Shown piece after piece: positions 42,186-48,210 of a stretch of DNA of 64,000 nt. The notes beneath the pieces are model-generated. The model did no database searches and had not been told where the DNA came from. It saw only the letters and a list, made by a program, of their open reading frames with translations. A program made the translations under genes and the position numbers. Each line of letters starts with the position of its first letter. The stretch's first letter is position 1. Source of the DNA: Streptomyces sp. V3I8 (GTDB lineage: Bacteria > Actinomycetota > Actinomycetes > Streptomycetales > Streptomycetaceae); NCBI RefSeq assembly GCF_030817535.1, contig NZ_JAUSZL010000002.1:1488001-1552000 (forward strand), read 5' to 3'.

Positions 42186-43208
42186 TCAGTGTTCGTGCGG
42201 CTCGTAGCCCGGGATCGTGCCGTCCGTCTTCCTCACCAGGAACAGGCCCGCCATCCCCATGTCGGAGTGGCTCTGGACGTGGCAGTGGTACATCCACGCG
42301 CCCGCGCCGACGCCCTCGCCCGCGATGACCTGGAAGCCGAACGAGTCGGCGGGACCCACGATCAGGTTGTCGACCACCCGGCTGGGGTCGTCGGGACCGG
42401 TCAGCAGGCCGGTGCGGTTGTCGGCCCAGCGGTGACCGTGCACGTGGAACGTGTGGTAGTACTCGCCGTGCGTGATCGACACGAACTCGACCCGGTCCCC
42501 CACCGTAGCCTCGAAGTTGGGACTGTCGTGACCCGGCCGGTTGTTGATCGTCATGTCGTTGAAGACGATGGTATGGGTCCTGTCGGGCAGGATGTCGCCC
42601 TGCCGGCGCACGATCACCGGCCCGTACAGGCCTTTGCGGATGCCGCCCGTACCGTGCACGGTGCCGACGACGTGGTCGTGGTAGTGCCAGTAGCCCGCGC
42701 TGCCCGCCCGCCAGGTGCCGTCCTTACGGCGGCCGGGGGCGTGCGTGCGCCAGGTGTACGTACGCGTGTCGCCGGGCTCGACATGCGAGCCGCTCAGCTT
42801 CGTGCCGTCGCTGGAGACCTCGTAGTCCAGGCCGTGGACGTGCAGGCTCGCCGCCACGTCCATGGTGTTCTCGACCTCGATGTGCAGGGTGTCGCCCTCG
42901 TTGAGCTCGATCAGCGGGCCGGGAATGGTGGCCGCGCCCTTCTCCAGTCCGTAGCCCATCTGCCCGTCGGCGAGCTTCTCGACATAGAGCTTGAGGCGTC
43001 TGACCTCGCCGCCCGCGGGGGCCGTACGGAGCGCGGCGCTCGCGCCGGCGGCCCTCTCGGCACCGGCGGCGGACGTCGCGTCCTTCGCGGCAACGAGCGA
43101 CAACGATGTCGCGACCGTGGCGACGGCGGCCCCGCCCATCACCATCCGACGGCTGAACCCACGCCTGTCCATCGCGTCCGTGGTGGCCATGTCGTCCGTG
43201 GTGCCCAT
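42186..43208 (-). CDS. Small two-domain laccase (multicopper oxidase, SLAC-type)
   Basis: 340 residues, too short for a three-domain laccase; two-domain enzymes form trimers. Twin-arginine signal near the N-terminus: MDRRGFSRRMVMGGAAVATVATSLSLVAA. Copper ligands: ASLHVHGLDYE, GYWHYHDHVVG, YHTFHVHGHRW and WMYHCHVQSHSDMGM (type 1 Cys-His-Met plus the trinuclear site). It oxidises phenols or other one-electron donors and reduces O2 to water outside the cell. ATG 43208 has GGGAG 7 nt upstream; a TTG at 43223 is less likely. It is divergent from the ThuA/sugar-dehydrogenase gene across 251 bp. From memory the S. coelicolor equivalent is SCO6712. Confidence 0.95.
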   Translation of the reverse strand: MGTTDDMATTDAMDRRGFSRRMVMGGAAVATVATSLSLVAAKDATSAAGAERAAGASAALRTAPAGGEVRRLKLYVEKLADGQMGYGLEKGAATIPGPLIELNEGDTLHIEVENTMDVAASLHVHGLDYEVSSDGTKLSGSHVEPGDTRTYTWRTHAPGRRKDGTWRAGSAGYWHYHDHVVGTVHGTGGIRKGLYGPVIVRRQGDILPDRTHTIVFNDMTINNRPGHDSPNFEATVGDRVEFVSITHGEYYHTFHVHGHRWADNRTGLLTGPDDPSRVVDNLIVGPADSFGFQVIAGEGVGAGAWMYHCHVQSHSDMGMAGLFLVRKTDGTIPGYEPHEH

Positions 43209-43234
43209 GCCGAACTCTCCCAACCTGCAACGCG

Positions 43235-45967: not shown

Positions 45968-48210
45968 CGAGCACGACGACCAACCGCGGCATCCGCGGGC
46001 GAAGAACTGGACGGTTGTGGACGGCGCTTGTCGCCTCACTGCTGATGGTGCTGGGCCTCGCGTCCACCTCGGCGTCCGGCCAGACCGACCACACCCCGTC
46101 CAGGGCGGGCGCCGCGGCGCAGACGCTCACCTGGACGGCCGGTGACGACATCACCAAGTACGCGTCCGCACCCACCACCGCGGTCGCGGGCCCGACGACG
46201 ATCGTCTTCGAGAACAGCGAGGCGACCGGCAACACCATGGGCATGCCGCACACGCTGACGTTCGACGTGTCGGACCCGGAGTACCAGAACGACGTCCCGC
46301 TGAACATCCTGGCCAACCCGAACGACGACCAGGGCGGCCGGCACACGGCCGAGGTGACGCTCTCACCCGGCCGGTACCGCTACTTCTGCACGATCCCCGG
46401 CCACGGCCAGATGCAGGGCATCCTGGTGGTCACCGAGGGCACCGGCGAGGACACCACCGCGCCGGAGACCGCGGCGCAGGTGACCGGCACGAAGAACGCG
46501 GACGGCGCGTACGTCGGTTCGGCGACCGTGGCGCTCAGCGCGACGGACGCCGGTTCGGGCGTCGGGCGCATCGAGTACGCCATCGGTGACGCGGGCGCCT
46601 GGCAGCCGTACACCACGCCCGTGGTGGTCGACCAGGCCGGCGCCCAGAAGGTCCGCTACCGGGCCGTCGACAAGGCCGGGAACACGTCCGCGGAGAAGGC
46701 GGAGCAGTTCACGGTGGTGGCCCCGCCGACGGACGACACGACCGCGCCGGACACCTCGGCCACGGTGACCGGCGAGAAGAACGCGCAGGGCGAGTACGTC
46801 TCCATGGCGACCGTCACGGTGACGGCCTCCGACACCGGTTCCGGCGTCAACACCATCGAGTACGCGCTCGGTGACGCCGGTGCCTGGCAGGCGTACACGG
46901 CTCCGGTGATGGTCCACGAGGTGGGCGCGCACAAGGTGCGGTTCCGGGCGACGGACAAGGCGGGCAACGCGGCCGCCGAGAAGTCCGTGTCGTTCGCCGT
47001 CGTCGCGCCGCCCGTCGAGGACACCACTCCCCCGGTGACCGGTGTGAACGTCGAGGGCACGAAGAACTCGGCCGGGGCGTACATCAACACCGCCAAGGTG
47101 ACGGTGACCGCGACCGACGCGCACGGCGGCTCGGGGGTGGAGAGGATCGAGTACTCGCTCGACAGCGGCCCCTACCTCGCGTACACCGCTCCCGTGGTGG
47201 TCGACCGGGTGGGCGCGCACACGGTGGTCTACCGGGCGAGCGACAAGGCGGGCAACACCTCGGACGCCCGGACGGTGAGCTTCACGATCGCCCCCGGCGG
47301 CGGCGTGCCGGCGCCCAACTGCGCCGAGTACGACGAGCGGTTGACGGTCGTCGTCGGCACGGTCGACACGGGCGTGCCGAACCGGATCACCAACAGCCGG
47401 TGCCGCATCAACGAGTTGATCGAGGACGAGAAGGAGTGGACGTCCCACGCGCTGTTCCTCAAGCACGTGACGACGGTCCTGAAGACGCTCCTCAAGGACG
47501 GTGTCATCGTCCAGCGCGAGTACGACCTGATCGACGAGGCGGCCGACGAGTCCGGCATCGGTGACCCCGGCCAGACCGAGGGCTACCGCACGATCATGGA
47601 CGGTACGCAGGAGACCTTCGGCGCGTGGCAGCACGTGGGCGGCGGTTCGTTCGCGCTGAACGGCGACGGCACCATCACGTCGGGCAGGACGAGGGACGGC
47701 CTCGGCATGCTGTGGTTCCCCGAGCGCAAGTACGGGGACTTCTCGCTGAAGCTCCAGTGGCGTGACGACGCGCCGGGTACTGGCAACGCCAACTCCGGCG
47801 TGTTCGTGCGGTTCCCGCAGGTGCACAACCATCCCGAGGAATCCCGGCCCGAGTGGGTCGCCATCAAGTACGGGCACGAGATCCAGGAGTTCGACAGCCC
47901 CACCGGCGACATGTACAAGACCGGTTCCGTCTACGGCTTCGACCGGGTGGGCCTGGCCGGTGCCGGTGTCACCCAGAAGGGCACCTGGAACGACTACGAG
48001 ATCCGCGTGGTGGACCAGCACTACTCCGTCTACCGCAACGGCGTGCTGATCAACGAGTTCGACAACACCGGCGGCCAGGACTTCACCCCGCCGCGCTCGG
48101 ACGACCCGGGCACGGACGGGCGGCGGTTCTCCTCCGGCTACATCGGGCTCCAGGTGCACAGCACGACGGACGTGGTGTCGTACCGCGACGTCCGGATCAA
48201 GGAGTTGTGA
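45964..48210 (+). CDS. Secreted cupredoxin / OmpL47-like repeat / DUF1080 protein
   Basis: 748 residues from GTG 45964, overlapping the previous stop. Signal peptide to about residue 40 (LWTALVASLLMVLGLASTSASG). Cupredoxin domain at about 50-160 with type 1 copper ligands: His in MPHTLTFD and Cys/His/Met in YFCTIPGHGQMQG. Three ~95-residue beta-sandwich repeats (about 160-445), each starting DTTAP/TPP and ending KAGNTS/A. A helical segment with two Cys (about 450-540) and a C-terminal DUF1080 (3-keto-disaccharide hydrolase, LamG-like) domain (about 555-748: WFPERKYGDFSLKLQWRDD, NSGVFVRFP, WNDYEIRV, GYIGLQVHS). Electron transfer plus 3-keto-sugar cleavage in one chain is suggested. Confidence 0.85.
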   Translation: MTSTTTNRGIRGRRTGRLWTALVASLLMVLGLASTSASGQTDHTPSRAGAAAQTLTWTAGDDITKYASAPTTAVAGPTTIVFENSEATGNTMGMPHTLTFDVSDPEYQNDVPLNILANPNDDQGGRHTAEVTLSPGRYRYFCTIPGHGQMQGILVVTEGTGEDTTAPETAAQVTGTKNADGAYVGSATVALSATDAGSGVGRIEYAIGDAGAWQPYTTPVVVDQAGAQKVRYRAVDKAGNTSAEKAEQFTVVAPPTDDTTAPDTSATVTGEKNAQGEYVSMATVTVTASDTGSGVNTIEYALGDAGAWQAYTAPVMVHEVGAHKVRFRATDKAGNAAAEKSVSFAVVAPPVEDTTPPVTGVNVEGTKNSAGAYINTAKVTVTATDAHGGSGVERIEYSLDSGPYLAYTAPVVVDRVGAHTVVYRASDKAGNTSDARTVSFTIAPGGGVPAPNCAEYDERLTVVVGTVDTGVPNRITNSRCRINELIEDEKEWTSHALFLKHVTTVLKTLLKDGVIVQREYDLIDEAADESGIGDPGQTEGYRTIMDGTQETFGAWQHVGGGSFALNGDGTITSGRTRDGLGMLWFPERKYGDFSLKLQWRDDAPGTGNANSGVFVRFPQVHNHPEESRPEWVAIKYGHEIQEFDSPTGDMYKTGSVYGFDRVGLAGAGVTQKGTWNDYEIRVVDQHYSVYRNGVLINEFDNTGGQDFTPPRSDDPGTDGRRFSSGYIGLQVHSTTDVVSYRDVRIKEL

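Follow-up and report, generated by a model that had tools for sequence, protein, structure and literature searches.

Joint inheritance of a small laccase, a cupredoxin chain, and sugar enzymes of keto-glycoside type in Streptomyces and other actinomycete families

With which proteins does the small laccase of a Streptomyces work, and from where would it draw the electrons that it passes to oxygen? The question is raised by a three-gene set in Streptomyces sp. V3I8 (genome of 9.3 Mb), which lies within positions 42186-48210 of the window, by which we mean the whole 64,000-nt stretch of DNA that was analyzed. A two-domain small laccase is transcribed away from two overlapping genes, one encoding a fusion of ThuA with a GSDH-type propeller (ThuA-GSDH) and the other, called the third gene here, encoding a secreted chain of cupredoxin, immunoglobulin (Ig)-like repeats, and DUF1080 (Table 1). 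An earlier note had proposed that the cupredoxin carries electrons from a dehydrogenase dependent on pyrroloquinoline quinone (PQQ) to the laccase, while ThuA and DUF1080 process the 3-keto-sugar formed. It is nearly certain that the laccase shares its inheritance, its losses, and its rearrangements with the ThuA-GSDH-DUF1080 set and the type-1 cupredoxin chain, and there is very strong support for a functional link of the small laccase to the cupredoxin and to sugar enzymes of keto-glycoside type; taken as a whole, the earlier reading is partly supported.

The linkage was examined in a locus set consisting of the best 80 of 390 ThuA-GSDH relatives found, all from Streptomyces, and every one of these loci had a laccase match upstream on the opposite strand and a third-gene match downstream (L016 and L054 are cut by contig ends, and L045 and L062 are in pieces). 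Since these 80 loci were best matches, a genus sample of 121 evenly drawn Streptomyces genomes was added. The laccase was found in 74 of these genomes, the third gene in 73, a ThuA-GSDH orthologue (at least 66% identity) in 72, and all three in 71. Laccase and third gene were strongly associated (Fisher P-value 8.7e-30, uncorrected for kinship), and in 71 of 71 genomes with both, the laccase and ThuA-GSDH matches shared one contig and lay 167-385 bp apart. Some exceptions look like assembly gaps: in G073, the contig ends about 300 bp past ThuA-GSDH, at the expected laccase start, and G120 has a contig break.

Kinship was addressed with an rpoB tree of 100 Streptomyces, comprising all 47 laccase-negative and 53 of the 74 laccase-positive genomes of the genus sample, on which laccase and ThuA-GSDH each underwent at least 18 state changes. 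Across 17 independent supported pairs differing in laccase, ThuA-GSDH differed in the same direction in 14.6 on average (13-15), in the opposite direction in none, and not at all in 2.4, with a median P-value of 6.1e-5 in a sign test over the independent pairs. The linkage of laccase and ThuA-GSDH exceeds Streptomyces synteny and plain shared ancestry.

Beyond the genus, a class-level sample of 246 evenly drawn genomes from 103 genera was searched with a cut-off of 1e-50 for laccase and third gene, and both were found in the identical 39 genomes, of which 16 were Streptomyces and 23 belonged to three other families. Relatives of ThuA-GSDH (E up to 1e-50) occurred in 59 genomes, while the orthologue clade (at least 55% identity) was confined to genomes with laccase (38 of the 39, against 0 of the 207 others); the 20 genomes with merely distant ThuA/GSDH relatives were all without laccase. 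The laccase goes with the cupredoxin-bearing version of the ThuA-GSDH set only. When domains were mapped outside Streptomyces with profiles built from Streptomyces alignments, 21 of the 23 genomes held laccase, ThuA-GSDH-DUF1080, and cupredoxin chain in one locus, all on the same strand in 16 and with the laccase divergent in 5; in G277, the set was split by contig ends. DUF1080 is fused there to ThuA-GSDH rather than to the cupredoxin, which stands on its own chain with a variable number of Ig repeats. Conserved adjacency of the three genes, named beforehand as the observation on which the proposal could fail, was therefore strongly borne out in Streptomyces and beyond.

A second kind of locus was found in two genomes that belong to a single genus (f17/g17; protein identity points to Microbispora). 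There, a tandem laccase pair is divergent from a short cupredoxin-Ig protein and no sugar enzymes are present (L110, L115). The same laccase pair and cupredoxin occur at L100 of genome G136, where the contig ends just past the cupredoxin. Because the L110/L115 pairs lack sugar enzymes, a direct cupredoxin-laccase partnership is favoured, and such units argue that the laccase-cupredoxin pair would be the core of the system. In another family, f28 (L106:5638-7131, L108:6209-7795), one copy of the tandem laccase pair is missing type-1 and trinuclear copper ligands, with Thr in place of Cys and Ser and Lys in place of His, which suggests a possible hetero-oligomer with an inactive subunit.

The cupredoxin on which this partnership would depend is real, as the earlier note had claimed. 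Although Pfam listed no copper domain in the window's third chain at E 0.001, many of the listed third-gene orthologues come with a precomputed PF00127 match, and the cut-off of this family was passed by 2 of 2 related cupredoxin chains scanned. The nearest PDB chains of the cupredoxin profile are auracyanin A, the tethered cupredoxin domain of copper nitrite reductases with three domains (2dv6, 6tfd), plastocyanin, rusticyanin, and azurin. The four ligands His96, Cys142, His147, and Met150 are kept in all 79 Streptomyces rows that reach the site, the window among them (L045, the 80th row, is a fragment and was not counted). A wider set, to which the window and a few more Streptomyces belong, keeps them in 30 of 30 rows. 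With its axial Met, such a complete and unvarying type-1 site is, to judge by its residues, the design of a putative electron-transfer protein. A search of 16 chosen genomes with the cupredoxin profile matched 3, all of them with laccase; there was no match in the 2 laccase-only, 1 remnant-bearing, 6 laccase-negative, and 4 distant-relative-only genomes among them.

The laccase itself is an ordinary member of the group of SLAC (SCO6712) and other Streptomyces two-domain laccases, judged by its copper ligands and nearest PDB chains. Its open reading frame has 341 codons including the stop and a twin-Arg-like N-terminus, Pfam matched Cu-oxidase_2 and Cu-oxidase_3, and the top PDB chains were two-domain (small) laccases and copper oxidases matched over nearly the full length. 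All 12 scored positions of the ligand set (ten His, one Cys, one axial Met) are intact in the window protein. The divergent arrangement was as the earlier note had described it in coordinates, strands, and the 251-bp gap, and the GTG start of the third gene overlaps the ThuA-GSDH stop by 4 bp (GTGA).

Table 1. Positions of the three-gene set, its domains, its promoter region, and a downstream gene group in the window
Feature	Position	Strand	Remarks
Two-domain small laccase (SLAC type)	42186..43208	minus	Twin-Arg-like signal; complete multicopper-oxidase ligand set
Divergent promoter region common to laccase and ThuA-GSDH, 251 bp	43209..43459	.	
Block conserved in 81 Streptomyces promoter regions, candidate control element	43330..43440	.	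Bounds approximate
ThuA-GSDH fusion, secreted, 835 aa	43460..45967	plus	
ThuA domain, residues 67-289	43658..44326	plus	PF06283, 1.3e-60, 205.7 bits vs cut-off 33.4
GSDH-type six-bladed propeller	44387..45937	plus	Cys-Cys-His at catalytic-His position; Arg-Asn conserved; Pfam GSDH family match at residues 364-632, 6.6e-24
Third gene: secreted cupredoxin-Ig3-INT-DUF1080 chain, 748 aa	45964..48210	plus	GTG start
Cupredoxin domain of third chain	46117..46437	plus	Type-1 Cu ligands
Type-1 Cu ligands	His96 (46249), Cys142 (46387), His147 (46402), Met150 (46411)	plus	
Three OmpL47-type Ig-like repeats in third chain	46462..47292	plus	
INT (label coined here), conserved domain of about 85 residues	47314..47568	plus	Between the Ig-like repeats and DUF1080
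DUF1080 / 3-keto-disaccharide hydrolase domain	47584..48201	plus	PF06439; residues 541-746, 1.6e-30, 107 bits vs cut-off 26.8
pcaIJ-type CoA-transferase genes and protocatechuate-dioxygenase-like domain, downstream	49974-53729		

Considering linkage and domains together, we lean slightly towards the view that the three genes form one secreted, oxygen-consuming carbohydrate-oxidation module, in which electrons from sugar would pass via the cupredoxin to the laccase and on to O2. Our best guess for the electron path is from sugar to cupredoxin to laccase. The GSDH-type propeller would oxidize a glycoside, possibly with scavenged PQQ as its cofactor, and would pass the electrons to the cupredoxin carried on the Ig-repeat chain; from the cupredoxin they would reach the type-1 copper of the laccase trimer, and the laccase would reduce O2 to water as the terminal oxidase of an extracellular chain. 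ThuA and DUF1080 would process the (3-)keto-glycoside, a type of substrate to which the two may point by family precedent, and phenol oxidation by the laccase would be a side or additional activity. A wider proposal, which we hold only tentatively and with less confidence than the module itself, is that actinomycete small laccases may by origin be protein-fed terminal oxidases with a dedicated cupredoxin donor, a GSDH-like glycoside oxidation of the 3-keto type, and a non-PQQ or scavenged cofactor, lignin and phenol oxidation being secondary.

The proposed transfer from cupredoxin to laccase can be likened to that from pseudoazurin-type proteins, which feed related copper nitrite reductases. 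Small-laccase structure is described as nitrite-reductase-like (PMC7036934, accessible part), and two-domain trimeric copper nitrite reductases take electrons from pseudoazurin or cytochrome; some of them have a tethered cupredoxin, which in the Thermus enzyme lies about 14 A from the core copper (PMC7201279, accessible part). The nitrite reductases 2dv6 and 6tfd likewise combine a type-1 cupredoxin with a trimeric two-domain multicopper core, whereas here the chains are separate, the core is an O2-reducing laccase, and the cupredoxin is linked to sugar enzymes. On the sugar side, the LacABC and DUF1080 3-ketoglycoside pathway of Caulobacter likewise oxidizes sugar outside the cytoplasm with a DUF1080 hydrolase, but LacABC is a different, membrane-bound dehydrogenase in place of the GSDH-type propeller, cupredoxin, and laccase found here; 3-ketotrehalose and 3'-ketolactose are established or proposed substrates of DUF1080 proteins (PMC9007349, accessible part).

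The structural model of the propeller (predicted local distance difference test, pLDDT, 73; predicted template modelling score, pTM, 0.86) found 5min, 7cdy, and 1c9u as its best Foldseek matches, which places it in the six-bladed fold of soluble PQQ glucose dehydrogenase (sGDH) and aldose sugar dehydrogenase (Asd). The His inside the Cys-Cys-His motif and the Arg-Asn pair, which we take to be the catalytic position and a PQQ contact, respectively, are kept in 29 of 29 rows. With sGDH and Asd (1c9u, 3das) and fungal AA12 the window propeller shares the fold, the catalytic His, and Arg-Asn, and it differs from them in its Cys-Cys-His motif, its larger domain, its ThuA fusion, and PQQ anchors that are not demonstrated. 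A C-terminal Arg-x-Arg and a Lys/Arg are presumably the PQQ anchors of this family, and the Arg-x-Arg motif is present in 3das, 2ism, 3a9g, and 1c9u. The phmmer alignment sets Asn783-Leu-Met785 of the window protein opposite the Arg-Leu-Arg of 2ism, and MAFFT places the region elsewhere, also without Arg-x-Arg, so that the two alignments disagree.

The supply of PQQ, gauged by PqqE alone at its curated cut-off in the 121 Streptomyces genomes, did not follow the system. PqqE was present in 14 of 72 ThuA-GSDH carriers and 12 of 49 non-carriers (P-value = 0.51), and over 16 independent pairs on the rpoB tree it changed with ThuA-GSDH in 3.3, against it in 3.8, and not at all in 9.0. PQQ as a linked cofactor was consequently rejected, and the PQQ dependence in the earlier note was not borne out, as neither PqqE follows the system nor are the canonical anchors demonstrated. 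The source genome is a carrier with PqqE; given that only 14 of 72 carriers have it, most would need scavenged PQQ or another cofactor. Near the PqqE match of the source genome (L099:10618-14994, G000:C2:8086000-8105000), a ThuA protein has a metallo-beta-lactamase-fold (PqqB-like) protein on one side and a PQQ-alcohol-dehydrogenase-type propeller on the other, and a GMC oxidoreductase lies about 4 kb from this stretch; ThuA thus accompanies PQQ enzymes there too. Cytochrome-c-fused ThuA-GSDH relatives exist in other phyla.

Several points weigh against a sugar-to-oxygen chain. The partner reactions are deduced from sequence, linkage, and precedent, and the redox function of the propeller is putative because PQQ synthesis does not track the set and canonical anchors are not demonstrated. 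According to Foldseek, the propeller fold also includes Hedgehog-interacting protein (HHIP), which is not an enzyme. In Hyphomicrobium nitrite reductases, about 24 A separate the tethered cupredoxin copper from the core copper, a distance at which effective transfer would require movement (PMC7201279). Small laccases oxidize phenols (PMC3918160, accessible part), and one of them has been tied to lignin release by knockout (PMC5675413, accessible part). In two Streptomyces genomes, G058 and G116, a laccase (65% and 73% identity, respectively) stands in other contexts, with neither a ThuA-GSDH orthologue nor such a cupredoxin, and a laccase can therefore exist alone; in G136, outside the genus, laccases and cupredoxin are present and a ThuA-GSDH orthologue is absent.

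These points leave room for other explanations. In lignocellulose clean-up, which we consider rather unlikely, the laccase would act on phenols, while the sugar dehydrogenase and cupredoxin would reduce the resulting quinones or phenoxyl radicals and the cupredoxin would not feed the laccase. Its model is fungal cellobiose dehydrogenase with laccase, a proposed quinone- and radical-reducing partnership. It draws on the pcaIJ-type genes and the protocatechuate-dioxygenase-like domain downstream in the window, and on the Streptomyces ipomoeae laccase knockout, which made about one fifth of the solubilized lignin (PMC5675413). The pca genes, however, lie within 10 kb of the set in 35-38 of 58 full-flank Streptomyces loci and had no match in 27 loci outside the genus (L100-L126, 3.3-18 kb each), for which reason the pca cluster was rejected as a part of the system; laccase-cupredoxin units without nearby sugar enzymes also speak against clean-up. 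The same units would suit a cupredoxin that stores copper or, as a chaperone, delivers it to the exported laccase, with the sugar enzymes a separate function of the same regulon. We regard this as improbable, since the complete, invariant type-1 site with its axial Met has a predicted electron-transfer design, DUF1080 and the cupredoxin form one chain in Streptomyces, and over 17 independent contrasts the sugar enzymes go with the laccase.

There is similarly little chance, in our estimate, that the propeller is a non-redox binding domain and that ThuA and DUF1080 act on glycosides oxidized by laccase and cupredoxin, directly or via a mediator: in 58 of the 72 carriers no PqqE passes the curated cut-off and the fold includes HHIP, but the catalytic His and Arg-Asn are invariant in the rows aligned. 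Chance synteny, or hitch-hiking of functionally unlinked neighbours, is already disfavoured and appears very improbable. Two other genes are also often near the set in full-flank Streptomyces loci (LacI in 50 of 58, DUF3048 in 51 of 58); yet the set is found rearranged outside Streptomyces without those neighbours, and the independent pairs on the rpoB tree stand against mere proximity. In the 27 outside loci, no match was found to the LacI, desaturase, ABC protein, DUF3048, or pca genes of the window, and these neighbours therefore look Streptomyces-specific.

In the divergent promoter region, about 110 bp (43330-43440) are strongly conserved across 81 Streptomyces sequences (the 80 loci and the window). 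The laccase ATG at 43208 and the Shine-Dalgarno-like stretch preceding it are also conserved alignment columns. The earlier note had pointed to a LacI regulator with a CebR-like site next door. The site exists at 41962-41975, with one mismatch to what we take to be the CebR box, and it is the sole match in the window at up to 2 mismatches (0.67 expected by chance). Control of the set by LacI/CebR was not supported and was rejected, because the site lies in the upstream region of the lacI gene itself rather than in the shared promoter and the LacI gene is unmatched in the loci fetched from outside Streptomyces. AdpA was also rejected: a site spotted by eye against the AdpA consensus was present in just 14 of the 81 promoter regions, compared with a mean of 3.4 after shuffling, and the surrounding block is conserved while the site is not.

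Variation within the set was seen in several genomes. In G048 (L096:7126-8139), laccase and DUF1080 remnants overlap on opposite strands, consistent with a single deletion of everything between laccase and DUF1080. The third chain of G037 is without DUF1080. In the laccases of L020, L021, and L097, Asn replaces the first His of WHYHDH, and in the genome of L097 the partner chain is also without DUF1080. The INT domain sits between the Ig repeats and DUF1080, and outside Streptomyces many cupredoxin-Ig chains also terminate in it. In 2 of 2 non-Streptomyces chains scanned, ThuA carries an inserted F5/8C carbohydrate-binding-type domain. The source genome also has a second pair, ThuA-DUF1080 with GSDH-PKD-CBM6 (L089:226-11877, G000:C2:1660000-1676000), adjoining two sugar-isomerase-like barrels, a GFO/IDH/MocA oxidoreductase, a TatD-like protein, a UbiA prenyltransferase, and an inositol-phosphate-synthase-like gene; a neighbourhood of this kind is called an ebo-type cluster. 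Such loci (L089, L090) have the same three sugar-side domains as the window set in another arrangement, whereas elsewhere in the genome the cupredoxin profile matched nothing, and a second laccase was not matched at 1e-60.

Since 2004, small laccases have been known chiefly as phenol oxidases for biotechnology. No description of a link among laccase, cupredoxin, and sugar enzymes was found in the titles and abstract openings of the open literature, in which listings are partial and subscription journals mostly fall outside. SLAC-type laccases have been studied as phenol and lignin oxidases, and the accessible parts of the reports do not mention for them the partner set found here. S. ipomoeae, for which a laccase-knockout phenotype is published, has a third-gene orthologue. 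The accessible part of the report (PMC5675413) gives 74.9 mg CO2 per g wheat straw for the laccase-disrupted strain against 123.8 mg, about 40% less, together with the lower yield of solubilized lignin; its authors read the straw result as lignin degradation. Dry weights in complex medium were 29.3, 20.7, and 22.2 mg, 29.3 apparently being wild type. The straw defect would also fit impaired carbohydrate use.

The link of the laccase is near-perfect over many independent gains or losses and in several arrangements, which makes its natural donor directly testable. Joint inheritance suggests that the laccase's natural partner may be a cupredoxin in a sugar-oxidizing chain. If this is true, Gram-positive soil bacteria would possess an extracellular O2-reducing chain for glycan breakdown, and the phenotypes of laccase knockouts on plant biomass would need to be read anew.

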